A stretch of 64,000 nt of DNA. Source: Empedobacter tilapiae (GTDB lineage Bacteria > Bacteroidota > Bacteroidia > Flavobacteriales > Weeksellaceae). The notes beneath the pieces are model-generated. The model had not been told where the DNA came from and searched no databases. It saw only the letters and a list, made by a program, of their open reading frames with translations. The position numbers were made by a program, and so were the translations under genes. The DNA is taken from the NCBI RefSeq assembly GCF_004785645.1, contig NZ_SRPE01000001.1, positions 186,001-250,000 of the forward strand, written 5' to 3'. Positions 47,001 through 64,000 of this stretch are shown one piece after another. Numbering within the stretch: position 1 is the stretch's first letter; every line of letters starts with the position of its first letter.

Positions 47001-47165
47001 CAATCTACCTAACCTTATTATAATCAGCAACTTAACATACAGTAAGATTATATTAATTAAACTCTTTAACTCTGCTTATAACTACATAAAAACCTTATCT
47101 GTTTCTCTTGTATACATGGTTAACTTATACTGAAAGAGAAGTGTAATGTAAAAGTAAACGCATAG

Positions 47166-47196
47166 AAAAAGCCATTCAGAACTCTGAATGGCTTTT
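47166..47196 (-). terminator. Terminator of the leu operon
   Basis: AAAAAGCCATTCAGA and TCTGAATGGCTTTTT form a 15-bp stem with a short loop, 25 bases after the leuB stop. Symmetric, so it also protects from the groESL side. Confidence 0.9.
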
Positions 47197-47220
47197 TCAT
47201 TAAGTCATAAATAATAAAAA

Positions 47221-48345
47221 CTATATAATCGTCGATTTTCCCATCAATACATTTTCAAAATTGAAATATGAATGATGATCATGATCGCTCAATAATATCT
47301 TCGCAATATAATTTGCCACAACAGACGTCGAATAATCGCTCGTTTCATCTAAATCTGAAGTTACAATCAAATTATTAATCGCATTTTCCACTGCATTTTC
47401 TATTGCTTTCGCGCCGTCTTCTAATCCCAAATAACGCAACATCATTGCAGCACTCAAAATAGAAGCCATCGGATTTGCAATTCCTTTTCCTTCTGCCTGT
47501 GGATACGAACCATGAATAGGTTCGAACAATGCATTTTCTGTACCAATAGAAGCCGAAGGCAACAATCCTATACTTCCACCAATTACACTTCCTTCATCTG
47601 AAATAATATCGCCAAACATATTCTCTGTTAATATCACATCAAATTGTTTTGGATTGATGATTAATTGCATAGCTGCGTTATCAACAAACAAGAAATCTAA
47701 CTCAACTTCTGGATATTCTTGGCTAATATCCATCGCAACTTTTCGCCATAAACGAGATGTATCCAACACATTTGCTTTATCAACTAACATTACTTTTTTG
47801 CGACGTTTCATTGCTTCCTGAAAAGCTAAATGTGTAATTTCTTCAATATCTTTTCTATGATACGAACACGTATCGTAGGCATGTGTACCATCTTCTGACG
47901 TAAATTTTTCTCCGAAATAAATTCCGTTAATCAATTCACGAAAAATAACCATATCCGTTTCTTCGATGTGCGAACGCTTCAATGGACTTTTCCCTAACAA
48001 AGATTCGTAAGCCTTGATTGGACGGATATTTGCAAATAAACCAAGTTCCTTTCTCAGCTTTAACAAACCTTGTTCGGGACGAACTTTAGCGTTCGGATTA
48101 TTATCATATTTTGGATCTCCAATAGAACCAAACAAAACCGCATCTGCATCTTTACATAATTGCAACGTCGCATCTGGCAAAGGATTTCCTGTTTCGTCAA
48201 TCGCAATCGCTCCTATTAAAGCTTCTTCAAATTCAAAATTATATTTAAAAATTTGTTCAACGACTTTCAGAACCTTTATAGTTTCCGAAACGACTTCTGG
48301 TCCTATTCCATCGCCAGAAAGTACTGCAATTTTATGCGTTTTCAT
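47221..48345 (-). CDS. leuB: 3-isopropylmalate dehydrogenase
   Basis: NAD-dependent oxidative decarboxylation in leucine synthesis. The 374 residues have [14 protein letters not shown], the Arg-rich substrate site [13 protein letters not shown], the metal-site [20 protein letters not shown], and [14 protein letters not shown] for NAD. The sequence ends with an unusual HDHHSYFNF tail before MGKSTII. Its start overlaps the leuD end by 14 bases; last gene of leuACDB. Confidence 0.96.
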
Positions 48346-48934
48346 GTTGTAAAGATTTATGGTTTTGTTCGTAAGTTTCTATTTTACCTTTTTGACTGAT
48401 TAAAAAATCAATGTCATCATATCCATTTAATAAACAGATCTTTTTATACGAATCAACTTCAAAGTTGATAGTTTGATCTTGAAGTATCAAGGTTTGTTTT
48501 TCTAAATTAACTTCAAATTCTGTTGAAGGATTTTGGTCGATGATTTCAAAGATTTGATTTAAAATTTCATCTGAAACAACAATTGGTAGAATTCCGTTAT
48601 TCAATGCATTTCCTTTGAAAATATCAGCAAAATAACTACTAATTACTACATCAAATCCGTAATCTTTGATTGCCCAAGCAGCATGTTCTCGGCTACTTCC
48701 GCAACCAAAATTTTTACCAGCAACTAATATTTTTCCAGCATATTTTGAATCATTCAGCGGAAAGTCTTCAATTGCTTGATTATCTTGATTAAATCGCCAA
48801 TCTCTGAATAAATTATCTCCAAAACCTTCTCTACTAATCGCTTTCAAGAAACGAGCTGGAATAATTTGATCGGTATCTATATTTTCTATTTTAATCGGAA
48901 CAGCCGATGATTTTAGTTGATTGATTGAATCCAT
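48332..48934 (-). CDS. leuD: 3-isopropylmalate dehydratase small subunit
   Basis: Swivel domain of isopropylmalate isomerase. The 200 residues have [15 protein letters not shown] near 18-32 and [18 protein letters not shown] near 72-89, the substrate-binding loop. Length and motifs are standard. It is 12 bases after leuC and overlaps leuB. Confidence 0.97.
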
Positions 48935-48946
48935 TTTGAGTAAATT

Positions 48947-50332
48947 TTAATTGATATCAACAATTTTTCCGTGAATTGCAGCAGCAGCAGCAATCAAAGG
49001 ACTTGCTAATAATGTTCTTGAATTTGGACCTTGACGACCTTCAAAATTTCTATTCGAAGTCGAAACACAATATTTTCCTTCTGGAACTTTATCGTCATTC
49101 ATCGCCAAACAAGCCGAACAACCTGGTTCGCGCAATTTGAATCCAGAAGCTTCAAAAATTTTATCCAAACCTTCTTCTATCGCTTGCTTTTCTACTTGTT
49201 TCGAACCCGGAACAATCCATGCAGTTACATTTTCATTGCGCTGTTTTCCTTTCACATAATTTGCTACTTCACGCAAATCTTCGATTCTCGCATTGGTACA
49301 ACTTCCGATAAACACATAATCAATTGGATGATTGATGATTGATTGATTATCTTGGAAGCCCATATATTTCAACGCTTTTTCAAACGATTCTTTTTCATTA
49401 TCGCTTAACGAATCTTTAGAAGGAATAATATCTTTTACCGAAATTCCCATTCCTGGATTCGTCCCAAACGTAATCATTGGATAAATATCCGCGGCGTCAA
49501 ATTCTATTTCTACATCAAAAATTGCATCAGCATCACTTGGTAAAGTTTTCCAATACGCAACTTTTTGATCCCACTCTTCTCCTTTCGGTGCAAATGGTTT
49601 ATCTTTTAAATAAGCAAAAGTCGTTTCATCTGGCGCAATCATTCCGCCACGAGCGCCCATTTCAATCGACATATTACAAACTGTCATTCGACCTTCCATC
49701 GACATATTCTCGAAAACATCTCCAGCATATTCACAGAAATAACCTGTTCCTGCATTTGTTCCAACTTTAGAAATGATATACAAAATCACATCTTTTGGTT
49801 GAACATTTGGATTCAGTTTTCCATTGACTTTGATTCGCATTGATTTTGGTTTATTCATCAACAAACATTGACTTGCAAAAACCTGTGCAACTTGACTTGT
49901 TCCAATTCCGAAAGCAATCGCTCCAAAAGCACCATGCGTAGACGTGTGACTATCACCACAAACCATACTCATTCCTGGTTGTGTAACGCCCAATTCTGGC
50001 GCAATAATGTGAACAATTCCTTGATACGGATGACCTAAGCCATAAAATGTTATGTTATTTTTTTCGCAATTAATTGCTAATTGCTCTAATTGTTGTTTTG
50101 ATAATGGATCTCGAACCGGCTGATCTTGATTAATCGTTGGCACATTGTGATCCGCAGTAGCTACAATTTGATCAGGTCGAAAAATAGGAATATTTCTCGC
50201 TTCTAATTCTGTAAAAGCCTGTGGACTTGTTACCTCGTGAATTAAATGTTTGTCAATATAAACAACTTGTGGCCCGTTTTCTACTTGACTCACAACATGT
50301 GCGTCCCACACTTTATCGAATAAGGTTCTCAT
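48947..50332 (-). CDS. leuC: 3-isopropylmalate dehydratase large subunit
   Basis: Carries the 4Fe-4S cluster of isopropylmalate isomerase. The 461 residues start [12 protein letters not shown] and contain [28 protein letters not shown] with the first cluster Cys, and [11 protein letters not shown] with the other two. The aconitase ending NRNFEGRQG follows. Its ATG overlaps the leuA stop by four bases (ATGA). Confidence 0.97.
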
Positions 50333-51504
50333 GCAAATTTTCTTTGTGTTGTTTGGTTAAACTGATGCATTAATCCGATAAGATCTTCTCGTACAACTTC
50401 TTTTTTTACATCAGCAATTGCTAAAAATTGTTCATATAAAATATCTAATTCATTTCTAGATGTATCAAAACCGATATCTTTCAAACGATAAGCTAAAGCC
50501 GAACGCCCGCTACGAGCTGTAAGAATAATAGAAGATTCGTTTACACCAACATCTGCTGGATTGATAATTTCGTATGTTTCACGGTTTTTAATCACTCCAT
50601 CTTGATGAATTCCAGAACTGTGTGCGAAAGCATTCGATCCTACAATTGCTTTATTTGGTTGTACCATCATTCCCATTGTTTCAGAAGTTAATTGGCTTAA
50701 TTCTGTTAACATTTGAGCATTGATATCTGTATAAAAATTCAATTCTTTGTGTTGTCTAAAAATCATTACGATTTCTTCTAAAGCTGTATTACCAGCGCGC
50801 TCACCAATTCCGTTAATCGTACATTCAATTTGACGTGCTCCATTTATTGCTCCTGCAACTGCATTCGCTGTCGCTAAACCTAAATCGTTATGATTATGAC
50901 AAGAAATAATAACATTATCAATTCCTTGAACATGATCTTTCAAATATTTAATTTTATTCCCATACTCAAAAGGTAAACAATAACCTGTTGTATCTGGAAT
51001 ATTAAGAACTGTTGCACCAGCTTTTATTACTTCTTCACAAACTTGAGCAAGAAAAGCATTATCCGTTCTTCCTGCGTCTTCAGCGTAAAACTCAACATCG
51101 TCTACAAATGTTTTTGCATAAGTAACAGCTTCAACTGCACGCTCTATAATTGCATCACGATTCGAATTAAATTTATGAACAATGTGTGAATCCGAGGTTC
51201 CGATTCCTGTATGGATCCTTGGTTTAATTGCGTGTCGTAAAGCTTTAGCTGCAGATTCAATATCTTTTTTATTTGCACGAGTTAAGCCACAAACAGTTGC
51301 ATTTTTAACTAACTTTGAGATAGAATCTACTGCATCAAAATCACCAGGACTTGAAATTGGAAATCCAGCCTCTATGATATCAACGCCTAATTCGTCCAAT
51401 CGAGCCGCAATTTCTAACTTCTGTTTTTTGTTTAACTTACACCCTGGCACTTGCTCTCCATCTCTCAGTGTCGTATCAAAAATTTGAATCTTTTCAGCAC
51501 TCAT
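50329..51504 (-). CDS. leuA: 2-isopropylmalate synthase, short form
   Basis: Condenses acetyl-CoA with 2-oxoisovalerate, the first committed step of leucine synthesis. The 391 residues have [14 protein letters not shown] (metal Asp and catalytic Arg), [21 protein letters not shown] with the metal-binding His pair, and NGIGERAGN. It ends after the linker subdomain, whereas E. coli LeuA is 523 residues, so the C-terminal leucine-binding regulatory domain is missing. Short forms are usual in Flavobacteriia. Feedback control by leucine at this enzyme is thus unlikely. First gene of leuACDB; no leader peptide visible in the 148-bp upstream gap. Confidence 0.93.
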
Positions 51505-51652
51505 AGCAATTTGTTTTGATTATTATTGTGATATAAAATTAAAATTATGCTAACTTTAAGTTTCTTATTTAAAGTTTATTTTACAATTTTCAAAAAGTTT
51601 TTCAATCAACTATATCACTGCTTTTAAACATTTTAAACCTATTTTCATTACA

Positions 51653-53134
51653 ATGTCAAATCATAATAAAGATTCGCTTTTTAGTTTAATAAAGTCACTT
51701 AACCGTTCCGAGAAACGTCAATTCAAACTTTATGTAAATCGTTTGCAAATAAATGCAGATGCAAAATTTTTGTTATTATTTGAAGCGTTAGATAAATTGG
51801 ATGAATATGATGAAATGGCAATTTTGAAGAAAAAAATTACCACAAAACAGCAATTATCTAATCTAAAAGCTCATTTGTACAAACAAATTTTGTTTAGCTT
51901 GAGAATGAATCCTTCGCAACAAAATTCACGTATGCAAATACGTGAACAATTTGATTTTGCGACTATTTTATACCAAAAAGGTTTGCATAAGCAAAGTCTA
52001 AAAATGTTAGATAAGGCTAAAACTCAAGCGTTAGATTTTGATGAAAAAACAATTGCATATGACATTCTTGAATTAGAAAAAATTATTGAATCACAATTTA
52101 TTACACGAAGTATTTCAGGGCGTGCAGATCAGTTAATTGAACAATCAGAAGAATTGAGTTTACAAAATTTACAAGCAAGTAAATTATCTAATTTATCACT
52201 GAAATTGTATAGTATTTTGCTCGAAAATGGATATGCAAAAGATGATGATGAAATTCAGAAAATTCAGAATTTCTTTGATTTGGAAACAAAAAACATCGAT
52301 TTAAAACGATTAAAATTCAAAGAAAAATTATGGTTTTATAAAGCGAATGTTTGGTTATCGATGTTGACGCAAAACCTACATTCCGCTTATGATTTTTCTA
52401 AAAAATGGGTTGAATTATTTTATGAGAAAAAAGAACGAATTCTTAGTCATCCTGTTTGGTTTATCAAAGGAAATTCGTATTTATTGAAGATTTTATACCT
52501 GAAAAAAAATTCGGAAGAATTCAAATTTTGGTTTGATAAATTAGAATCTGTTTATGGTACTTTACCTCAAAATGATAATGTAGAAGCACTTTGGTTTATC
52601 AATAAATTCAATAGTAAATTGAATTATTTTTTTATCAATCCAAAAGAAAATATTAGTCCTTTTTTGATTAAAGATATTCTTCGTGAAATAAAATTGCATC
52701 AGCATAAAATCGATAATCATCATATTTTGGTTCTTTTTCTAAAGATTGCTGCATATTATTTTCTCAACAAAGACTGGGATAATTCGTTTGAATATTGTCA
52801 AAAAATAATCAATAGTGAAGCGACAATTCAAGAAGATTTATACTTTTATACATTGGTTTTGATTATGATGAACTTATATGATTCTGGAAATGATCAAGAA
52901 TTGGATGCATATTCGTACAAAACGCATCAATTCTGTAAAAAGATGAAAAACAGTAATATTATTACACGAAAAATCAGTTTGTTTTTTATTGAATTGAATG
53001 ATTTGTATCCTCATGAAAAAGTGAAAGCTTTTCGAGAATTAGATAGTTTTCTTAAAGATTCAGATAATCACAGTTTATTAAGACGAAATACCAATTATAT
53101 CAATCTTTGTCGTTGGATGGAAGATAAAATTTAA
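51653..53134 (+). CDS. Helical-repeat protein of unknown function
   Basis: The 493-residue protein is all-alpha, rich in Leu/Lys/Asp, with TPR-like units such as ILYQKGLHKQSLKMLDKAK near 115-130. It starts with SLFSLIKSLNRSEKRQFKLY, a segment I associate with a family of uncharacterised Bacteroidota proteins. No signal peptide or membrane segment. It is divergent from leuA and followed by the RDD gene with a 77-base gap. Function unknown. Confidence 0.75.
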   Translation: MSNHNKDSLFSLIKSLNRSEKRQFKLYVNRLQINADAKFLLLFEALDKLDEYDEMAILKKKITTKQQLSNLKAHLYKQILFSLRMNPSQQNSRMQIREQFDFATILYQKGLHKQSLKMLDKAKTQALDFDEKTIAYDILELEKIIESQFITRSISGRADQLIEQSEELSLQNLQASKLSNLSLKLYSILLENGYAKDDDEIQKIQNFFDLETKNIDLKRLKFKEKLWFYKANVWLSMLTQNLHSAYDFSKKWVELFYEKKERILSHPVWFIKGNSYLLKILYLKKNSEEFKFWFDKLESVYGTLPQNDNVEALWFINKFNSKLNYFFINPKENISPFLIKDILREIKLHQHKIDNHHILVLFLKIAAYYFLNKDWDNSFEYCQKIINSEATIQEDLYFYTLVLIMMNLYDSGNDQELDAYSYKTHQFCKKMKNSNIITRKISLFFIELNDLYPHEKVKAFRELDSFLKDSDNHSLLRRNTNYINLCRWMEDKI

Positions 53135-53211
53135 AATAAATTTTATCTCTAAAATATTTTATAACACTTAATGCTTATTGTATATTTACAACTAATTAAA
53201 GGCTAAACACT

Positions 53212-53711
53212 ATGTACCTAGATTACAAAGTTGGCGAACATAAAGCTAACAAAGGATTACGTTTTTTGAATTACATTATTGATCTATTTTCTATTATAAT
53301 TGTAACAATTCTTTTCTTTGGAATAATAGCTGGAATTATAACTGTTATTAACCCAGAAAGTAATATCATTTATGAATTTGAAAATATTAATCCACTATTA
53401 GATAGAATTTTAACAACTTTTTTTATGTTTTATTAATTTTTTTATCTGAATATCTAACAAAAGGAAGATCATTAGGTAAATTTATTACAGGAACTAAAGT
53501 TGTTATGATTGACGGTTCTGCTCCTACAACAAAAGATTATTTTTACCGTAATCTATGTCGAATTATTCCATTCGATCAACTTACATTTTTAGGAGGAAAT
53601 GGTTGGCACGATAAAATATCAAAAACTACAGTTGTTAATAAAAAAGCTTTTGAAGCAGATTTATTACAAGCGGACAATATAGAAAGTATTGGTAAATCTG
53701 ATGTTGAGTAA
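53212..53711 (+). pseudogene. RDD family membrane protein, interrupted by a -1 frameshift
   Basis: Frame 1 (53212-53436) gives the first RDD helix, KGLRFLNYIIDLFSIIIVTI, and stops soon after TTFFMFY. The -1 frame continues without a gap as YVLLIFLSEYLTKGRSLGKF, TGTKVVMIDGSAPTTKDY, LCRIIPFDQLTFLGG and GWHDKISKTTVV to 53711, the conserved second half of RDD. The switch falls on seven T at 53418-53424. Either one T has been lost (mutation or read error) or ribosomes slip there. RDD proteins are small inner-membrane proteins, some linked to ion transport. Confidence 0.85.
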
Positions 53712-53790
53712 TTTTCTATAAAATATATTCAATTCAAATTATCTCAAAACAATAATTTATGTAAAAAATCATTGTTTTTTCTGCATATAG

Positions 53791-53823
53791 TTTCGCAAAA
53801 AAGGCTATTTATTAATACCTTTG
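53791..53823 (+). promoter_or_regulatory. mqo promoter
   Basis: TTTCG, 20 bases, TACCTTTG: a perfect -7 box (TAnnTTTG) with a near -33 box, 23 bases before the mqo start. Confidence 0.7.
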
Positions 53824-53846
53824 CAACGTAAATATATTTTTGAGAA

Positions 53847-55322
53847 ATGGAAAAACAACCTCAAGAGGTAGTATTAGTTGGTGCTGGTATCATGAGTGCT
53901 ACTTTAAGCATACTTCTTAAAAAAATAAATCCGGCTATTAAGATTTCTGTTTTCGAAAAATTAGATAAGATTGGATTTGAAAGTTCTGACGCTTTCAATA
54001 ATGCAGGAACTGGACACTCTGCTTTTTGTGAATTGAATTATACACCAATAGACAAAGATGGAGTGGTTAATATCGATAAAGCAATTAATATTGCAAAACA
54101 ATTTGAAACTTCAAAAGAGTTTTGGTCTTACTTAGTCGAAAATAATTACGTTTCTTCTCCAGAAAAATTTTTACGCCCTACTCCACACATGTCTTTTGTT
54201 TGGGGCGATGATGACGTAGAATTCTTGAAAAAACGTTATGAAAAATTATCTCAACATCCTTTATTCAAGGATATGGAATATTCTGATGACGTTTCAAAAA
54301 TCAAAGAATGGGCTCCATTAATTGTTGATGGTAGAAAAGGTAATGAAAAAGTTGCGGCAACGCATATGAACTTGGGAACTGATGTGAATTTTGGTGAATT
54401 AACACGTCAAATTTTCAAAGGTTTACAAGACAAAAATGAAATTACCTTAGAAACTCGACACGAAGTAAAAGACTTAACTCGTCTTAGCAATGGAAAATGG
54501 GCAGTTAAAGTAAAAGATTTAAAATCTGGAAATAACAAAGCACTTAATGCTGATTTCATATTTATTGGTGCAGGTGGAGGAGCAATTTTATTGTTACAAA
54601 AATCTGGAATTCCTGAATCGAAAAAATTTGGTGGTTTCCCAGTTGGTGGACAATGGTTAATTTGTCAGAACGAAGAGGTTATCAAAAAACATCATGCAAA
54701 AGTATACGGAAAAGCTAAAATTGGTGCGCCACCAATGTCTGTGCCTCATTTAGATACACGTGTTATTGATGGAAAACAATCTTTATTATTTGGACCATTT
54801 GCAACATTCTCAACAAAGTTCTTAAAATATGGATCTAATTGTGATTTATTCAAATCTGTAAATCCTGGAAACGTTGGATTTTTGATGAATTGTGGTTTAA
54901 ACAATATCGATTTGACAAAATACTTGGTAGAGCAAGTAATGTTGTCTAAAGCTAAAAAAGTAGAATCTTTACAAGAATATTTCCCTGAAGCGAAATTAGA
55001 AGATTGGTTTGAACAAACTGCTGGACAACGTGTACAAGTTATCGAAAAACAAGATGGAAAAGGAGTTCTGAAATTTGGTACAGAAATCGTAACATCTCAA
55101 GACGGATCTATGTCCGCCTTATTAGGAGCCTCTCCAGGTGCATCTACATCTGTTAGTGCGATGTTGAACTTGATGAAACAATGTTTCCCAGACTTGATGA
55201 AAAACAAATGGAATGATGCAATCAAAGAAATGATTCCTTCTTACGGTGAAGATTTAGCACAAGCTGAATTAGTTGAAGCATCAAGAGCACGTACAACTAA
55301 AGTCCTTAAAATTTTAGATTAA
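53847..55322 (+). CDS. mqo: Malate:quinone oxidoreductase
   Basis: Membrane-associated FAD enzyme that oxidises malate to oxaloacetate and reduces quinone, bypassing malate dehydrogenase in the TCA cycle. The 491 residues start with the FAD fold VVLVGAGIMSATLS (8-21), followed by NNAGTGHSAFCELNYTP, IGAGGGAILLLQKSGI and the C-terminal LLGASPGASTSVSAML. Full length. Monocistronic, with its own promoter and terminator. Confidence 0.97.
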   Translation: MEKQPQEVVLVGAGIMSATLSILLKKINPAIKISVFEKLDKIGFESSDAFNNAGTGHSAFCELNYTPIDKDGVVNIDKAINIAKQFETSKEFWSYLVENNYVSSPEKFLRPTPHMSFVWGDDDVEFLKKRYEKLSQHPLFKDMEYSDDVSKIKEWAPLIVDGRKGNEKVAATHMNLGTDVNFGELTRQIFKGLQDKNEITLETRHEVKDLTRLSNGKWAVKVKDLKSGNNKALNADFIFIGAGGGAILLLQKSGIPESKKFGGFPVGGQWLICQNEEVIKKHHAKVYGKAKIGAPPMSVPHLDTRVIDGKQSLLFGPFATFSTKFLKYGSNCDLFKSVNPGNVGFLMNCGLNNIDLTKYLVEQVMLSKAKKVESLQEYFPEAKLEDWFEQTAGQRVQVIEKQDGKGVLKFGTEIVTSQDGSMSALLGASPGASTSVSAMLNLMKQCFPDLMKNKWNDAIKEMIPSYGEDLAQAELVEASRARTTKVLKILD

Positions 55323-55347
55323 GATATTCTTACATCATATAATTATA

Positions 55348-55382
55348 AATCCTGATATTCATTTATCAGGATTTTTTTTTTA
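55348..55382 (+). terminator. Terminator of mqo
   Basis: AAATCCTGATA and TATCAGGATTT flank a short loop and lead into ten T, 26 bases after the stop. Confidence 0.9.
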
Positions 55383-55400
55383 CAAAAAACGTAAGAGCAT

Positions 55401-55437
55401 AAAAAAAGGTTTGAGAATAAATTCTCAAACCTTTTTA
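55401..55437 (-). terminator. Terminator of the rlpA-like gene
   Basis: AAAAAGGTTTGAGAAT and ATTCTCAAACCTTTTT form a 16-bp stem around two bases, 16 bases beyond the rlpA-like stop on the minus strand. Confidence 0.9.
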
Positions 55438-55452
55438 TTTTTTCTGAACATC

Positions 55453-55983
55453 TTAGTCTTTCTTATCTTCGCTTTTGATAATTTCGTATTCAACTTGCAT
55501 CACTCCTGTGTTGGTGTGACCAATTTCGCTGAATGCAGCTTGACTTAAGTCTAAAACTCTAGATTTAGCGTATGGACCTCTGTCGTTGATTTCAACAACT
55601 ACAGATTTACCATTTCTGATATTCGTAACTTTTACTTTCGTACCAAATGGTAAAGACTTATGGGCAGCTGTTAGTTCGTGTTTGTCATACGTTTCACCAC
55701 TAGCTGTCTTGCGTCCGTGGAATTTGTCTCCATACCAAGAAACAACTCCTGTCGAGATTTTTCGAGCACTATTCTCAATAAGTTCTCCAACCAACTTTTC
55801 ATCTTCAACTGATAATGTATCTTTTTTGATGGTATCATTATCAATATCTTTACTAAATCTTTTCTCAGAAGCTGGCATAATAATTGTGTCATTACTACCA
55901 GAATCCTTAAAAATTTTACCATCAGCATTTGCTATTGGAAAAATCATTAACATTGCTATAAACGCTGTAATGCTTTTCGTCAT
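55453..55983 (-). CDS. RlpA-like double-psi beta-barrel protein
   Basis: The 176 residues have a signal peptide (FIAMLMIFPIANADG), an unconserved linker, and the RlpA barrel from about 75: GVVSWYGDKFHGRKTASGE, HKSLPFGTKVKVTN and VEINDRGPYAKSRVLDLS. RlpA proteins are septal lytic transglycosylases acting on bare glycan strands. There is no C-terminal SPOR domain and no lipobox Cys, so it appears to be a free periplasmic form. A TAAATTTG -7 box lies about 20 bases before the start. Confidence 0.88.
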   Translation of the reverse strand: MTKSITAFIAMLMIFPIANADGKIFKDSGSNDTIIMPASEKRFSKDIDNDTIKKDTLSVEDEKLVGELIENSARKISTGVVSWYGDKFHGRKTASGETYDKHELTAAHKSLPFGTKVKVTNIRNGKSVVVEINDRGPYAKSRVLDLSQAAFSEIGHTNTGVMQVEYEIIKSEDKKD

Positions 55984-56306
55984 CCTTTAGATTTTTCTGA
56001 TTTACTTTGCAAATTTAAGGGTATAAACAGCTTCTTATTTAGAATTATTCTAATCGTTTGATTTTTAATTCTAAAATCTCTTGTGCTTTGCTAATTTAGA
56101 TGCTTATAGCGAATTGTTAATTTAATGTTAAAATAAATCTATAATCCTAATTTTTTTGGCAATTATTCATTTAAATCGGATATATAAATGATAATCAATA
56201 ACTAATCATTTTCTATAATTTGAAGAAATTTATCAAATAAAGAAATAAAAAAGGTAAAGTTTCGTAAACTTTACCTTTTCTTAATTTTTAAAGATTTAAA
56301 AATCAA
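55984..56306. other. Non-coding gap between rlpA-like gene and yqeY
   Basis: 323 A/T-rich bases. I see the rlpA promoter region at the left and the yqeY terminator at 56247-56280; nothing else, and no small open frame with support. Confidence 0.6.
56247..56280 (-). terminator. Terminator of the yqeY gene
   Basis: AAAGGTAAAGTTT and AAACTTTACCTTT flank three bases, with A/T-runs on both sides, 27 bases beyond the yqeY stop on the minus strand. Confidence 0.88.
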
Positions 56307-56759
56307 TTATAAACTAGCTAAAATGTCTTTTACTTTAGCTGAAATTAATTTCCCTTCCGCTTTACCAGCCAATTTAGATGAAGCAGCTCCCATTACTTTT
56401 CCCATATCTTTTGGAGAAGTAGCGCCAACCTCTGCAACAATTTCTGTAATTGCAGCTGTTAATTCTTCATCTGATAATTGAGCAGGTAAAAATTGTTGGA
56501 TTACTTCTGCTTGTGCCAATTCTTTTTCAGCTAATTCTGCACGGTCGTTTGCTTCGAATTGTTCAGCAGCTTCTTTACGTTGTTTTACTAATTTTTGTAA
56601 TAAAGCAATTTCTTGATCTTCTGATAATTCACCGTTAGCTCCAGATGTTTTTGCTAATAATAATTCAGATTTTACAGCTCTTAAAGCTTCTAAAGCAACA
56701 GTATTTTTAGCTTTCATCGCTTCTTTTAACTGTGCCATTATTTGAGTTTCTAAATTCAT
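56307..56759 (-). CDS. GatB/YqeY domain protein
   Basis: The 150 residues form a YqeY-like helical domain: AQLKEAMKAKNTVALEALRAVKSELLL split over 9-34, KQRKEAAEQFEANDRAELAEKE near 75-96, and DMGKVMGAASSKLAGKAEGK. It resembles the tail domain of GatB and binds tRNA in some proteins; here it stands alone and its role is not established. It lies downstream of ftsZ behind its own promoter. Confidence 0.9.
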   Translation of the reverse strand: MNLETQIMAQLKEAMKAKNTVALEALRAVKSELLLAKTSGANGELSEDQEIALLQKLVKQRKEAAEQFEANDRAELAEKELAQAEVIQQFLPAQLSDEELTAAITEIVAEVGATSPKDMGKVMGAASSKLAGKAEGKLISAKVKDILASL

Positions 56760-56778
56760 GATTTTTGCTTTTAGACTA

Positions 56779-56811
56779 CAAATTTAAGACAAAAAAAGGC
56801 TCATCACAAAA
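56779..56811 (-). promoter_or_regulatory. yqeY promoter
   Basis: The minus strand reads TTTTG, 20 bases, TAAATTTG, a full match to both boxes, 19 bases before the ATG. It lies within the ftsZ terminator hairpin. Confidence 0.78.
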
Positions 56812-56825
56812 GCAATGAACCTTTT
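56788..56825 (-). terminator. Terminator of ftsZ, overlapping the yqeY promoter
   Basis: On the minus strand AAAGGTTCAT and ATGAGCCTTT (one G-U pair) flank ten bases, followed by TTTT. It starts about 35 bases after the ftsZ stop. Confidence 0.85.
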
Positions 56826-56860
56826 CTATAATAAGAATATTTTTTACGAGTGATCGTTTA

Positions 56861-58714
56861 TTAATCTACATTATCGTGTAGAAAATTGTTTGGACGAATT
56901 TGTGTTTCGTTGTTACGATTAGTTCCGACAGAAAAATCAGAAGATTGATTATCATTACGATCAGATAAATTCAATCCTTGACGTTTGTAAGCAGGAATTG
57001 CTTCGTATTCGTCTACTTGAGAATTAGTCATCGTATTGTTGAATTTAAAATTAAATTGTTTCAAACGATTTCTTCTCTCTTCAATCATACTATTCAATTC
57101 AGGATCATTTGACTGCTCAATTGGTTGGCTAAACGGATCTACTGCAACTTGTACTTCTTCTGCTTGTGGAGCAGCTGAATGAGCTACATTAGATTGAATT
57201 GGCTCTACACTTCCATATCCTTCATTCTTTGGTGCTTGATATCCTGTATAATTATTTTGAGGATAATTTGACTGTTCCGAAGCTACAGGATTAGAATATG
57301 AATTATATGTTTGATTATTATTCACATTGTTCGTTGGTTCTTGCGGACGATTAAAATCAGATTTCAAACGTGGTTCGAAATCATCATAAGAACGTCTTTC
57401 TTGAACTGGCTCATCTTCAATATCATCTAGAACATAACGCTTTGGAGAATTATTTTCTTCGAAAGATTCTTCTGGCGTATTGTGATAAGTTTGTTGTTGA
57501 AAACTTTGGTTAATATCTGCTTGACGATAATTATTTTGAGGAGCCTCTGGCGTTTGATTTTGTTGAGGCGTTTGTGTTGCTTGTTGAGAAGCATTAGAAC
57601 GACCAAAATCTAACGTCATTGGTTTTACACGATTTACAAAAGGTTGATCAACAGTTAATGTTTTATTAATTGGTTGTTCTTCCTCTAATGTGTGTACAAT
57701 TTTTTGTTCTTCTTTTCCTGTATACGCCTGATCTTCTGTAGGAAAACCTGTTGCTACAACAGTTACAGAGATAGAATCTCCTAAATCTAAGTCTTCACCA
57801 ATACCCATAATAATATTTGCACTATTACCAGCTTCTTGTTGAATGTAATCATTGATAATACCGATTTCATCCATTGTAATTTCATTATTACCAGATAAAA
57901 TCAATAACAATACATTACGTGCGCCTGTAATTTTGTTATTGTTTAACAATGGAGAATCTAAAGCAGAAGAAATTGCGTCTTTCGCTTTGTTTTCACCAGA
58001 ACCTTGCGCAGATCCCATGATTGCTGTACCAGAATTTTTAAGTACTGTACGCGCATCACGTAAATCGATGTTCATTGCATAGTGTTGTGTAATAACTTCT
58101 GCAATTCCTTTAGCTGCTGTTGTTAAAACCTCATCAGCTTTTGAGAAACCATTTTTGAAACCTAAGTTTCCATATAATTCACGTAATTTATCATTGTTGA
58201 TCACAATCAATGAATCTACGTTTTGTCTTAATTTTTCGATACCTTTTTCGGCTTGTTCCAACCTCATTCTTCCTTCGAAAAAGAATGGCGCTGTAACAAT
58301 CCCTACTGTTAAAATATCCATTTCTTTTGCAATACCAGCAATTACTGGCGCTGCTCCGGTTCCTGTACCACCACCCATTCCGGCAGTAATAAAGACCATT
58401 TTAGTTCCTTCGTCTAAAACAGCTTTTACATCATCCATACTTTCGATAGCAGATTGCTCTCCTACCTCAGGATTTGCTCCAGCTCCTAAACCTTCTGTTA
58501 TTGCTTGTCCTAATTGAATTCTTGTTGGTACTGGACTATTTGCTAATGCTTGAGAGTCCGTATTACAAATTACAAATTCTACACCTGCAATTCCTTGTTC
58601 AAACATGTAGTTTACGGCATTACTACCTCCACCACCTACTCCGATTACTTTGATAGCTTGAGATCGGCTCTTTGGTAAATTGAACACAATATCTCCTGTT
58701 AACATATCACTCAT
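56861..58714 (-). CDS. ftsZ: Cell division GTPase FtsZ
   Basis: Tubulin homologue that forms the division ring. The 617 residues have a conserved GTPase (about 18-325) with the signature AGMGGGTGTG at 111-120 and the T7 loop NIDLRDAR. A 240-residue Asn/Gln/Pro-rich linker follows. The C-terminal conserved peptide appears as EAIPAYKRQGLNL near 572-584, followed by about 33 more residues, so it is not at the very end. E. coli FtsZ has 383 residues; the difference is the linker and tail. It is 46 bases after ftsA in the division cluster. Confidence 0.97.
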   Translation of the reverse strand: MSDMLTGDIVFNLPKSRSQAIKVIGVGGGGSNAVNYMFEQGIAGVEFVICNTDSQALANSPVPTRIQLGQAITEGLGAGANPEVGEQSAIESMDDVKAVLDEGTKMVFITAGMGGGTGTGAAPVIAGIAKEMDILTVGIVTAPFFFEGRMRLEQAEKGIEKLRQNVDSLIVINNDKLRELYGNLGFKNGFSKADEVLTTAAKGIAEVITQHYAMNIDLRDARTVLKNSGTAIMGSAQGSGENKAKDAISSALDSPLLNNNKITGARNVLLLILSGNNEITMDEIGIINDYIQQEAGNSANIIMGIGEDLDLGDSISVTVVATGFPTEDQAYTGKEEQKIVHTLEEEQPINKTLTVDQPFVNRVKPMTLDFGRSNASQQATQTPQQNQTPEAPQNNYRQADINQSFQQQTYHNTPEESFEENNSPKRYVLDDIEDEPVQERRSYDDFEPRLKSDFNRPQEPTNNVNNNQTYNSYSNPVASEQSNYPQNNYTGYQAPKNEGYGSVEPIQSNVAHSAAPQAEEVQVAVDPFSQPIEQSNDPELNSMIEERRNRLKQFNFKFNNTMTNSQVDEYEAIPAYKRQGLNLSDRNDNQSSDFSVGTNRNNETQIRPNNFLHDNVD

Positions 58715-58760
58715 ATTCTTCTTATTAAATTGGTTCGTAATTTATTCTAGTTTATTCTTA

Positions 58761-60212
58761 TTATTCAGTTTCGTTGATCATTTGGATAAATTTATCCGTC
58801 CATTTCGAAAAGAAATTTTTCTTTTCTGGTTTAGATTTAGCTTCTTTCTTTTCTCCAATTTCTTGATCCAAGAATTCGTCCACTATTTCTTCTCTTTTTG
58901 GTTTTTGGATAATTTCTTCCTCAACAACAATTTCAGATTTTACAATCTTTTTTTGTTGTGTTGGTTGAATTCCAATTTCTAATTCTTCTTGGTTATTTAA
59001 ATTATTAATAACTGGTTTTTCATAAATTTCGTGCTGATAATTCGCCGCTAATTCTTCTAAACCTTTCATCAATAATCCAACAGATGTTGCATATTCTGGT
59101 CCGCTAATTTCCTCAGCTTTTGCTCCGACAATATGTTCGTTAGAGTATCCAATTCTTACATCCATTCCAGTTACATATTCTGTTAACTGACGAATGTGTT
59201 TCAATTTAGATCCACCACCTGTTAAAACGATTCCTGCAATCAGTTTTTTGTTTTGATCTTCGCAACCGTAATTTTTCAATTCTAAATATACTTGTTCCAA
59301 AATTTCCTGCACACGTGCATGAATAATTTGTGACAATCTTTTTAATGATATTTCTTTTGCTTCGCGTCCTTTTAAACCAGGAATCGATACAATTTCAGTT
59401 TCTTTATTTTCTCCTGGCCAAGCAGAACCAAATTTTTCTTTTAAAGCTTCAGCTTGCTTTCCAATAATAGAACATCCAACTTTAATGTCTTCTGTAATCA
59501 CATTTCCACCAAACGGAATAACAGATGTATGACGAATAATATTATCCTTAAAAATTGCAATATCCGTTGTTCCACCACCTATATCAATCAATGCAACACC
59601 AGCTTCTTTTTCTTCTTCGCTAAGCGCAGCACTAGACGATGCAATTGGTTCTAAAGTAATACTTGCCAAACGTAAACCAGCAGCTTTTACACAACGTGCA
59701 ATATTTCGGATAGATGAAACTTGTCCTACAACCACATGGAAATTAGCCTCTAAACGACTTCCGTACATTCCAATTGGTTCGCGGATTTCACCTTCGTTAT
59801 CAACCTTAAATTCTTGAGGAAGAACATGGATAATTTCTTCTCCAGGTAACATCACTAATTTGTAAACTTGATTTGTTAATAACTTTAAATCATTATCATC
59901 AATCACGTCTTCTGAATTGGTACGAGTAATGTAATCGCTATGTTGTAAACTACGAATATGTTGTCCGGCAATACCAACAGTAACATCAGTAATTTTGACA
60001 CCAGATGATCTTTCAGCCTTATCAATTGCCTCTTTTATCGAGTTAATGGTTTGTGTAATATTATTTACAACACCTCTGTGTACACCTAAGCTTTTTGCTT
60101 GTCCGTGTCCAAGAATTTCGATTTTTCCGTTTTCATTTTTTCGTCCGACAAGTGCTACAATCTTTGTAGTCCCTATGTCTAAGCCAACTGCAATCTTACT
60201 ATTGTTTTCCAT
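58761..60212 (-). CDS. ftsA: Cell division protein FtsA
   Basis: Actin-like membrane tether of FtsZ. The 483 residues have the phosphate-1 motif AVGLDIGTTKIVALVG (8-23), the 1C/SHS2 insert, phosphate-2 VALIDIGGGTTDIAIF near 207-222 and the adenosine motif IVLTGGGSKL. The C terminus, FFSKWTDKFIQMINE, is the amphipathic membrane-targeting helix. Its start overlaps ftsQ by 14 bases. Confidence 0.97.
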   Translation of the reverse strand: MENNSKIAVGLDIGTTKIVALVGRKNENGKIEILGHGQAKSLGVHRGVVNNITQTINSIKEAIDKAERSSGVKITDVTVGIAGQHIRSLQHSDYITRTNSEDVIDDNDLKLLTNQVYKLVMLPGEEIIHVLPQEFKVDNEGEIREPIGMYGSRLEANFHVVVGQVSSIRNIARCVKAAGLRLASITLEPIASSSAALSEEEKEAGVALIDIGGGTTDIAIFKDNIIRHTSVIPFGGNVITEDIKVGCSIIGKQAEALKEKFGSAWPGENKETEIVSIPGLKGREAKEISLKRLSQIIHARVQEILEQVYLELKNYGCEDQNKKLIAGIVLTGGGSKLKHIRQLTEYVTGMDVRIGYSNEHIVGAKAEEISGPEYATSVGLLMKGLEELAANYQHEIYEKPVINNLNNQEELEIGIQPTQQKKIVKSEIVVEEEIIQKPKREEIVDEFLDQEIGEKKEAKSKPEKKNFFSKWTDKFIQMINETE

Positions 60213-60942
60213 TTTTTATTCGTTTGGTTGCTACAACTTGGTTTACAAATTTCAAGCTCAATTTTTCATAATCTTCAGTTCCTATAAAATCAATGTATTG
60301 ATTATAGAATAATTTTAGATTATGTAACTTCTGTTCAAAGTTATTTAAGGTTCCTAATTCTATATAATAGTTTCCTGTGTTTACAATTAAATTAAAAGAA
60401 CGTTGTCCTACTTTTTGAATGGCTATGATGTGATTTTTTAATAAATCGTCTGCTTTCAAAGCTTGTACAAATTTACTCAAATCCTCATATTCATTCGGTT
60501 TTACATCACCAGAAACTAAGATTACATCCGCTGAATTTAATTTAGATAAAGGCATTTTTTCGCCTTTTGTTGTCAAATAAAATTCATCTTTCAGCGTTTT
60601 TATTCTTGCAACTGCTGAGTTTGCTTTTATATCAAGTCGTAAATGTCCATTTATATCTTTACTTACTTGTACAGAATCCACAAAAGGACTCTCACTTACT
60701 TTTTGTTCGATTTCCTGTACATTCACCTCTCGTAGAGATTGTTTCAGAATGTCTTTTCCATCTTTGTTGATAATTTCTCTTATTGATTCATCATTAATAA
60801 AATAATTATCAACTGGCTGAACAAACGCCACGTCAATTTTATTCACTGTACGCGAAGCATTCTTAATTACCGTAAAACTAATCAAACCGATTAGCAAGGC
60901 AACTCCAAAAATCACTTTTATGATTTTCAATTTACGCTTCAC
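60199..60942 (-). CDS. ftsQ: Cell division protein FtsQ
   Basis: Bitopic divisome protein. The 247 residues have a short cytoplasmic end, one helix (about 9-25, KVIFGVALLIGLISFTV) and a periplasmic POTRA region (about 38-110) with NDESIREIINKDGKDIL. The weakly conserved C-terminal beta domain contains DLSKFVQALKADDLLKN. Identity rests on architecture and its position between murC (11-base overlap) and ftsA. Confidence 0.93.
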   Translation of the reverse strand: MKRKLKIIKVIFGVALLIGLISFTVIKNASRTVNKIDVAFVQPVDNYFINDESIREIINKDGKDILKQSLREVNVQEIEQKVSESPFVDSVQVSKDINGHLRLDIKANSAVARIKTLKDEFYLTTKGEKMPLSKLNSADVILVSGDVKPNEYEDLSKFVQALKADDLLKNHIIAIQKVGQRSFNLIVNTGNYYIELGTLNNFEQKLHNLKLFYNQYIDFIGTEDYEKLSLKFVNQVVATKRIKNGKQ

Positions 60943-62272
60943 TTAACCACTCTTTTATTGGTTTAACAATTGTATCAATATTTCCTGCTCCAACAGTCAA
61001 TAATACATCAAAATCTTGTTTTTTGATGTTTGCTAAACTATCTTCTAATGAAGATACTATTTTTTCATTTAAATTCACCTTTTCTAGCAACCAATTTGAA
61101 GTAATTCCTTCGACTGGCAACTCTCTGGCAGGATAAATGTCTAATAAAATCAAACTATCTAACTGTGATAAACTTTGTCCAAATTCTTCTGCGAAATCTC
61201 TTGTACGTGTAAATAAGTGAGGCTGAAATACTCCCAACACTTTTCTACCCGGGTAAAGTTCACGAACTGACCGAATTGCTGCATTCAATTCTGTTGGATG
61301 ATGCGCATAATCGTCGATGTAAATTTTTCCATTTGCTTCGAAACGATTAAAACGTCTTTTAACTCCAACAAAAGTTGATAAAGCTTCTTTAATTTTATCA
61401 TGAGGAACACCCATATAATCAGCAACAGCCAAAGCTGCAACCGCATTTTCCATGTTGTGATGTCCAGGTAATAAAATTCCTACATCTGTCAACGAACCAT
61501 TTGGTGTTTTTACATCAAACACATAATGTCCGTCAATAATTCTTACATTGTGTGCATCGTAATCTGCATCCAAATCCACTCCATATGTAAAAGCTCCTTC
61601 GAATGGCAAACCTTTGTGAACAAATAATTTTTCTTCAACAATTGCTGCGAACTCTTGAAATGACTTTTTCACTTCATCACGCTCACCATAAATATCTAAA
61701 TGATCTGCATCATCACTTGTGATAATCGCTAATTTTGGAGAAAGACGTAAAAAAGAACGGTCAAACTCATCAGCTTCTGCAACTGTATATTTAGAACCAT
61801 TTAGTATGATGTTCGAATCGTAATTCTCCGCAATACCACCTAAAAAAGCTGTACATTCTACATCTGCAACTTTTAGGATATGTCCTAAAATAGACGAAGT
61901 CGTTGTTTTTCCGTGCGTTCCCGCAACACCAATATTGTATGTATGTTTGGTAATTTCACCTAACACTTCTGAACGTTTCATGACTTTAAAATCATTCACT
62001 AAAAAATAATTTAGTTCTGAATGATCTTTTGGTACCGCTGGCGTATAAATTACCAACGTATTTTCTGCATTAATTCCTGCTGGAATTAACTCGATGTTAT
62101 CTTCGAAATGAATATCAATTCCTTCAGCAATCAATTCAGTTGTTAACTCGGTTTGCGTTTTGTCATAACCAGCAACTTCTTTTCCGATTGACTTGAAGAA
62201 ACGTTCCAAAGCACTCATTCCGATTCCTCCAGCACCGATGAAATAATAATATGTTTTATCTAAAATATTCAT
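60932..62272 (-). CDS. murC: UDP-N-acetylmuramate-L-alanine ligase
   Basis: First amino-acid ligase of the peptidoglycan stem. The 446 residues have the N-terminal UDP-binding YYFIGAGGIGMSALERFF, the ATP loop GVAGTHGKTTTSSILGH near 113-129, VAEADEFDRSFL, and DYAHHPTELNA with the conserved His pair. Length is normal. Its start is coupled to the murG stop (one shared base). Confidence 0.97.
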   Translation of the reverse strand: MNILDKTYYYFIGAGGIGMSALERFFKSIGKEVAGYDKTQTELTTELIAEGIDIHFEDNIELIPAGINAENTLVIYTPAVPKDHSELNYFLVNDFKVMKRSEVLGEITKHTYNIGVAGTHGKTTTSSILGHILKVADVECTAFLGGIAENYDSNIILNGSKYTVAEADEFDRSFLRLSPKLAIITSDDADHLDIYGERDEVKKSFQEFAAIVEEKLFVHKGLPFEGAFTYGVDLDADYDAHNVRIIDGHYVFDVKTPNGSLTDVGILLPGHHNMENAVAALAVADYMGVPHDKIKEALSTFVGVKRRFNRFEANGKIYIDDYAHHPTELNAAIRSVRELYPGRKVLGVFQPHLFTRTRDFAEEFGQSLSQLDSLILLDIYPARELPVEGITSNWLLEKVNLNEKIVSSLEDSLANIKKQDFDVLLTVGAGNIDTIVKPIKEWLSEA

Positions 62273-63378
62273 TATAATAAATTCAATAATATATCTACAA
62301 TCTCTTTTGTCGCGTTCGGTTTCCCTAATTGCTTAATGTTTTGAGATAATTTATTTTTTAATTCTTCATTGTTCGCCAAAGCAATTACTTCTTTGACTAA
62401 AATTTGCTTTGCATTTGCATCTTTCACCATGATCGCTGCATCTTTCTCAACCAATGCTTGTGCATTTTTGGTTTGATGATCTTCTGCCGCTGTTGGCAAT
62501 GGAAGCAAAATAGTTGCTTTTCCAACAATACACAATTCCGAAATCGCCATTGCTCCTGCACGAGAAACAATCATATCCGAAGCTGCATACGCATCTTTCA
62601 TGTTATAAATAAATTCGGTTACATGAATCGTTGGATATTTATCACCAACCAAATTTTTGATTTTTTGATAATCTAACTTTCCTGTTTGCCAAATCAACTG
62701 AACGCCACTTGCAACAAATTCGTCAAGGTTTTCAAACCAAGCATTGTTCATTGCTCTTGATCCTTGCGAACCTCCAACTGATAAAATAGTTGGTTTTTCT
62801 GGATCTAATCCAAAAGCTGAAATTGCTTCTGCTTTTGATGGTAAATTTTGAAAAATCTCAGCACGAATTGGATTTCCTGTATAATGCACTTTTTCTTGTG
62901 GAAACTGTGAAATTCCTTCGTAAGCTGTACAAATTGCACTCGCTTTATTTTTCAAAATTTTGTTAGTAACTCCTGGAAACGAATTTTGTTCTTGTAATAA
63001 AATCGGAACATTTTTACTTCCTGCTACCCACAACATTGGTCCACTTGCATAACCTCCTGTACCAATAGCTAAATCTGGTTGAAAATCTTTGTAGATTTTT
63101 TTTGCAAGACTCAAGCTTTTTATCAATTTGAAAGGGAACTTTAAATTCGCTTTCATGTTACTTCTATCAAATCCAGAAATTGGTAAACCTTTAATGTCAT
63201 ACCCAACTTTTGGCACTTTTTCCATTTCCATTCTTCCTTCCGCTCCAACGAACAAAATTTGTGCATCTGGCAAACGCCTTTTTATTTCGTCTGCAATTGC
63301 AATGGCTGGATAAATATGTCCACCTGTTCCTCCGCCGCTTATTAAAACTTTAGGCGATGTCTTCGATGTATTCTTCAC
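62272..63378 (-). CDS. murG: UDP-N-acetylglucosamine transferase MurG
   Basis: Makes lipid II from lipid I at the inner face of the inner membrane. The 368 residues have the glycine loops LISGGGTGGHIYPAIAIA (12-29) and GTGGYASGPML, then VGGSQGSRAMN and the donor-site SRAGAMAISELCIVGKATILLP segment in two parts, followed by AAEDHQTKNA. It overlaps ftsW by 29 bases. Confidence 0.97.
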   Translation of the reverse strand: MKNTSKTSPKVLISGGGTGGHIYPAIAIADEIKRRLPDAQILFVGAEGRMEMEKVPKVGYDIKGLPISGFDRSNMKANLKFPFKLIKSLSLAKKIYKDFQPDLAIGTGGYASGPMLWVAGSKNVPILLQEQNSFPGVTNKILKNKASAICTAYEGISQFPQEKVHYTGNPIRAEIFQNLPSKAEAISAFGLDPEKPTILSVGGSQGSRAMNNAWFENLDEFVASGVQLIWQTGKLDYQKIKNLVGDKYPTIHVTEFIYNMKDAYAASDMIVSRAGAMAISELCIVGKATILLPLPTAAEDHQTKNAQALVEKDAAIMVKDANAKQILVKEVIALANNEELKNKLSQNIKQLGKPNATKEIVDILLNLL

Positions 63379-64000
63379 TTAATACTTTTCTATCTTGTTC
63401 TATTTCTTCTTGCGATTTAATCTGAGTACTTACGCTCAAAATTATTCCGAACGAAATACATGTCATCCAAATGGATGTTCCTCCGTAACTAATCATTGGT
63501 AACGGTTGCCCTGTTACTGGAATTAAATTAACCGCTACAGCCATGTTTACCATTGCTTGTATAATAATTGGTAAGCCCACTGCAAATACAAGTAGCGTAC
63601 CAAAAACGGTATGAATTTTCGATGCGATGATACAAATTCGAATTAATATGAGAAGGAAAATTCCAATTAATAAAATTGCACCAATTGCACCATATTCTTC
63701 TACAATAATCGCGAAGATAAAATCGGATGATGACTGAGGTAAAGTTTGTTTGAAAACACTTTTTCCTGGTCCAGCCATTTCATTCAACCCTCTTGCAATT
63801 GCAGCTTTTGCGTGTAAAACTTGATAACTTTCTAATCCAGAATCATCATTAAATTTCTCGATACGTGACATCCATGTGTGCACACGAGAATTTGTTACTA
63901 AATCTGGTCGAGATAAAGCCATCCACACGAATCCGCCACCGAGTATTAAACCTACTCCAGCAATTGTAAATAAATATTTGAATGGAAATCCACCAATAAT
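63350..64000 (-). CDS. ftsW: Peptidoglycan glycosyltransferase FtsW, 3' part
   Basis: Septal SEDS-family polymerase. The frame is open to the right edge of the window (the visible part begins IIGGFPFKYLFTIAGVGLIL), so the start lies outside. Visible family features are LESYQVLHAKAAIARG, LPQSSSDFIFAIIVEEYG with the conserved Ser and Glu, NLIPVTGQPLPMISYGGTS and about four membrane helices. The cytoplasmic end is EDRKVLSEEYIEDIA-like. It is first in the visible ftsW-murG-murC-ftsQ-ftsA-ftsZ series. Confidence 0.95.
   Translation of the reverse strand: MIGGFPFKYLFTIAGVGLILGGGFVWMALSRPDLVTNSRVHTWMSRIEKFNDDSGLESYQVLHAKAAIARGLNEMAGPGKSVFKQTLPQSSSDFIFAIIVEEYGAIGAILLIGIFLLILIRICIIASKIHTVFGTLLVFAVGLPIIIQAMVNMAVAVNLIPVTGQPLPMISYGGTSIWMTCISFGIILSVSTQIKSQEEIEQDRKVLSEEYIEDIA

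Follow-up and report, generated by a model that had tools for sequence, protein, structure and literature searches.

The window analysed here, a stretch of 64,000 nucleotides, corresponds to positions 186001-250000 of contig C1 in the Empedobacter tilapiae assembly, which holds 3,712,743 bases in 27 contigs. An RDD-family gene, its reading frame divided in two, lies here between a conserved gene of 493 codons and the gene for malate:quinone oxidoreductase (mqo) (Table 1). The N-terminus and the first hydrophobic segment lie in the first half. Just past a TAG at 53403-53405 the −1 frame becomes open and stays so up to its terminal TAA. As this TAG precedes the −1 frame and frame 0 is closed at 53434, the shift that joins the halves must fall within 53406-53433, a stretch that includes a run of seven T (T7). 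An initial reading of the sequence alone had described a gene whose two open frames abut at this run and are joined by a −1 shift in the phase X XXY YYZ; open reading frames, translations and the phase of the run all bear this out. A second T7 (53437-53443) was rejected as the joining site, being located past the frame-0 stop. Independent translation of the second half was likewise rejected: from its first in-frame ATG at 53505 it would yield 68 amino acids without the preceding hydrophobic stretch, and nothing in its sequence gives a sign of a separate gene.

Table 1. Features of the RDD locus and its surroundings in the E. tilapiae window
Feature	Position	Strand	Description and basis
Upstream conserved neighbour	51653..53134	+	493 aa; weak NCBIfam BT_2802_fam match, 52.6 bits vs cut-off 550
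RDD-family gene, first half	53212..53436	+	74 aa, ATG 53212 to TAA 53434-53436; ORF list, translation
T7 run at the frame break	53418..53424	+	..T TTT TTT in frame 0; sequence and alignment
RDD-family gene, second half	53424..53711	+	−1 frame, 95 aa plus stop, TAA 53709-53711; translation
Downstream conserved neighbour, malate:quinone oxidoreductase (Mqo)	53847..55322	+	Pfam PF06039, E 1.2e-229

Family membership is indicated by the second half alone, which scores 28.3 bits against the Pfam model PF06271 (cut-off 24.1). The first half alone has no Pfam match at E≤0.001. The intact proteins of E. stercoris and E. falsenii reach 46.8 and 42.4 bits for RDD, respectively; the lengths of the two are 166 and 171 amino acids. 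Compared with the N-terminal part of these intact genes, the first half shows 75% identity to E. stercoris and 72% to E. falsenii, and the second half is 88% identical to E. falsenii Q1655. Thus, the earlier claim that both halves keep good conservation stands with respect to close relatives and fails for the first half with respect to the Pfam model. Like these relatives, the second half exceeds the family cut-off; unlike them, positions 53212-53711 encode no complete RDD membrane protein in a single frame, since frame 0 stops at 53434-53436 and the remainder follows in the −1 frame. Judged from its sequence, the gene is apparently a broken copy of an RDD family member. The same genome has two further RDD-family matches above the cut-off, both stop-free. 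An RDD member of Halobacillus andaensis is reported to be a Na+(Li+,K+)/H+ antiporter (PMC5996927). The family is broad and that protein is a distant member of it; transport would be a putative function here.

Using the second half as query, we searched 60 relatives and 14 genomes of the genus (that of E. tilapiae included) and obtained matches at E≤0.001 in 26 and 12 genomes, respectively. Close homologues (E below 1e-30) amount to nine copies in eight of the 13 other genus genomes, and the nearest named relatives are E. falsenii Q1655, E. stercoris, E. sedimenti and E. brevis. All nine are open, stop-free frames of 163-207 codons, and none of them is split. Three genus genomes (G003, G006 and G010) have a distant RDD match only, a frame of 243 codons, and two (G004 and G012) have none; altogether, a close copy is absent from five of the 14. 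Neither plasmids (searched with the DNA of positions 50000-60000) nor viral contigs contained RDD homologues. In the wider set of 60 relatives, one TAA falls inside the aligned stretch in two matches (G029 and G047), and a family relative carries another tandem pair of RDD homologues (G029:C24:263494-264245), one of them with a TAA in the aligned stretch.

In the relatives the gene is either whole in one frame, mostly in the same slot, or absent. It adjoins mqo in seven of the eight genus genomes carrying it, and in five of these seven the 493-codon neighbour also lies within the 3-kb locus; around the copy of G005 neither neighbour is present in the locus. The BT_2802_fam match of the 493-codon gene is full-length, and this gene has no Pfam match at E≤0.001. 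The content of the slot (53135-53846) varies within the genus: it may hold a single RDD gene, a tandem pair as in G007 (E. sedimenti), or no RDD gene at all as in G003. G003 matches the flanks of the window at 97% over 53693-64000 and at 93% over 47149-53135, and about 557 bases holding the RDD gene correspond there to about 55 bases without a match: the 493-codon gene ends, these 55 bases follow, and the common sequence resumes near the last RDD codons. With five of 14 genus genomes devoid of a close copy and the slot of G003 empty, the gene is therefore accessory and dispensable.

When E. falsenii and E. stercoris are aligned to the window, the latter is one base short where the T run begins. 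A comparison of the run in close relatives had been proposed on the basis of the sequence alone. E. falsenii, the source of the nearest homologue, carries a T7 at the same place within its ordinary reading frame, where no slippage is needed, and in E. stercoris such a run is missing from the aligned place. Since the open state is common to all close relatives, parsimony suggests that the state of the window is derived. The base loss is known from one assembly, that of one genome of the species.

Selection was assessed separately for the two halves, with the broken codon excluded, by comparing the window with E. falsenii or E. stercoris. The dN/dS ratios are 0.055-0.138 in both halves, values that come from small samples and are rough for the first half, where dS is near saturation. 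Codon changes unique to the window comprise nine synonymous and seven non-synonymous ones in the first half and eight and two in the second. The corresponding numbers are eight and three, then seven and two, for E. falsenii, and eight and one, then 14 and seven, for E. stercoris. Relaxed selection is not apparent in the second half; the first half carries a slight hint of it. As both halves are still conserved and their differences are mostly synonymous, any break must be recent; the long decay expected of an old pseudogene, against which the sequence-only reading had argued, is indeed absent. The pattern fits a recent break as well as the absence of any real break, and gives recoding no advantage over these two. 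At positions 53212-53415 the divergence from E. falsenii, with identity down to 35 bases in 60, is far greater than in the second half or the flanks. This hints that the gene has recombined or evolved fast in this part, and we also considered that it may be of mosaic origin.

The arrangement of the halves raises the possibility that full-length protein is made in a useful amount through programmed or tolerated recoding, with ribosomes slipping by −1 on U UUU UUU or RNA polymerase adding one U. Direction and phase of the run fit, and transcription insertions are reported to prevail at A/T runs in E. coli and Buchnera (PMC5574713). Nevertheless, we consider such productive slippage very improbable. 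The heptamer is common on contig C1: among 377 ORFs of this contig (at least 80 codons, from a greedy list in which some are probably spurious), 56 T7 runs are in the X XXY YYZ phase, as compared to 35 and 29 in the other phases, and the C1 coding sequence contains 393 A/T runs of seven or more. Normally read ORFs thus often contain the in-phase heptamer. Downstream of the run (53425-53524), the RNA is about as stable as its shuffled versions (z −0.94; 34 of 200 shuffles as good), which speaks against a stimulatory structure, and Rfam gave no match at 52900-54000. Some known frameshift sites do without such a structure. A programmed frameshift requires a shift site conserved across homologues, as set out in Table 1 of Antonov et al. 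2013 (PMC3711429), whereas the gene is split in none of the nine close genus homologues and E. falsenii reads the same T7 in its ordinary frame. With E. coli dnaX, where −1 frameshifting takes place on A AAA AAG, the site has the X XXY YYZ phase in common; unlike dnaX, it comes without conservation, a standout structure or an evident benefit, and U UUU UUU is the weaker site in E. coli (PMC5009743). Programmed slippage is not supported by these comparisons: none of the nine close genus homologues is split, the in-phase T7 is common, no structure stands out and the gene is dispensable. On the same grounds of non-conservation, frequency and unremarkable structure, slippage was rejected as the leading reading. 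That adventitious slippage on T7 supplies enough full-length RDD protein to keep the broken gene under selection, a 'rescued' indel in a free-living AT-rich member of the Flavobacteriales, is more doubtful still; accidental slippage may occur at a low level. Our search of the literature on pseudogenes in Empedobacter and on U-run frameshifting in Flavobacteria found nothing useful.

A more serious competitor is an error of sequencing or assembly in the homopolymer, with the gene intact in the organism. A single base is concerned, it lies at a T run, and both gene halves are still conserved. In addition, Antonov et al. 2013 expect that unclustered frameshifts confirmed by BLASTp reflect sequencing errors and not genuine indels (PMC3711429). 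The present case resembles the singletons of that study, expected there to be errors or indels, in being one unclustered, homology-confirmed frameshift with an unconserved shift site; error and mutation are left unseparated for each singleton there, and here, too, their separation is partial. Intact ORFs of G003 were matched against two stretches of the assembly, 424 kb on contig C1 and 400 kb on contig C12, the latter being only partly collinear with its counterpart. Full-length matches numbered 276 of 302 ORFs with hits in C1 and 87 of 136 in C12, and not one real frameshift was present in these 363 gene matches. The matched genes contain 294 A/T runs of seven or more (227 in C1, 67 in C12), none of which is broken, and the same holds for the 182 runs of exactly seven in the matched C1 genes. 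By the rule of three, the error rate should thus be below about 1% per run. The survey covers genes shared with G003 and selected to stay open, in which real mutations would be rare and errors would not, so that it speaks against a high error rate. Systematic homopolymer error in the assembly was rejected. Two frameshift candidates in the E. tilapiae genome (G000) turned out not to be real and were dropped before the count: one is located upstream of the conventional start of what we take to be a GroES-like gene, and the other is an ORF antisense to a presumably MscL-like gene, whose frame is unbroken in G000 as well as in G003. The survey also gave one candidate broken in G003. Several thousand such runs may exist per genome by extrapolation, and one single error is possible among them. 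Against error stand the unbroken runs of the sampled part of the assembly and the dispensability of the broken gene, as predicted for a real mutation. On balance, we regard error as rather unlikely, with a chance that still has to be reckoned with, and favour a real deletion over it by a moderate margin, as a matter of judgement and not of computation. Phase variation, in which the length of the T run would switch at a high rate in a population with both open and broken copies, is the least credible of the explanations considered. A single-unit break at a homopolymer in a membrane-protein gene would suit it, yet a run of seven is short, the exact-seven runs of matched C1 genes are all unbroken and E. 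stercoris lacks such a run.

We therefore rank a fresh deletion in a dispensable gene first and an error in the run second as the best reading of the locus. Probably, a recent deletion of a single base at the start of or within the T run broke an accessory gene for an RDD-family membrane protein. The fresh loss of one base had been named as an alternative to slippage, and it is the one that fits best with the intact relatives, the dispensable gene and the 294 unbroken runs. Several features of a recent frameshift pseudogene come together here, with orthologues intact in the relatives, an apparently broken copy in one lineage and a dispensable gene. Such a deletion would have arisen by replication slippage at the T run. 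Translation would then end inside the would-be second membrane helix and give a 74-amino-acid fragment in place of a complete RDD protein, and the break would be too young for the sequence to have decayed. Two observations weigh against a deletion: the break, seen in one assembly, lies at a homopolymer, the classic place of a sequencing error, and along the lineage of the window amino-acid changes have not accumulated in excess in the second half.

In summary, the RDD gene of E. tilapiae is an ordinary frameshifted accessory gene, most likely inactivated by a fresh loss-of-function mutation, and the case is of little weight in itself. In an AT-rich genome, a slippery heptamer in phase at a frame break is weak evidence because runs are common in ordinary genes and indels concentrate in them. 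The loss of one base in a run can alone leave a correctly phased heptamer, and it is the conservation of the site that tells recoding from breakage.
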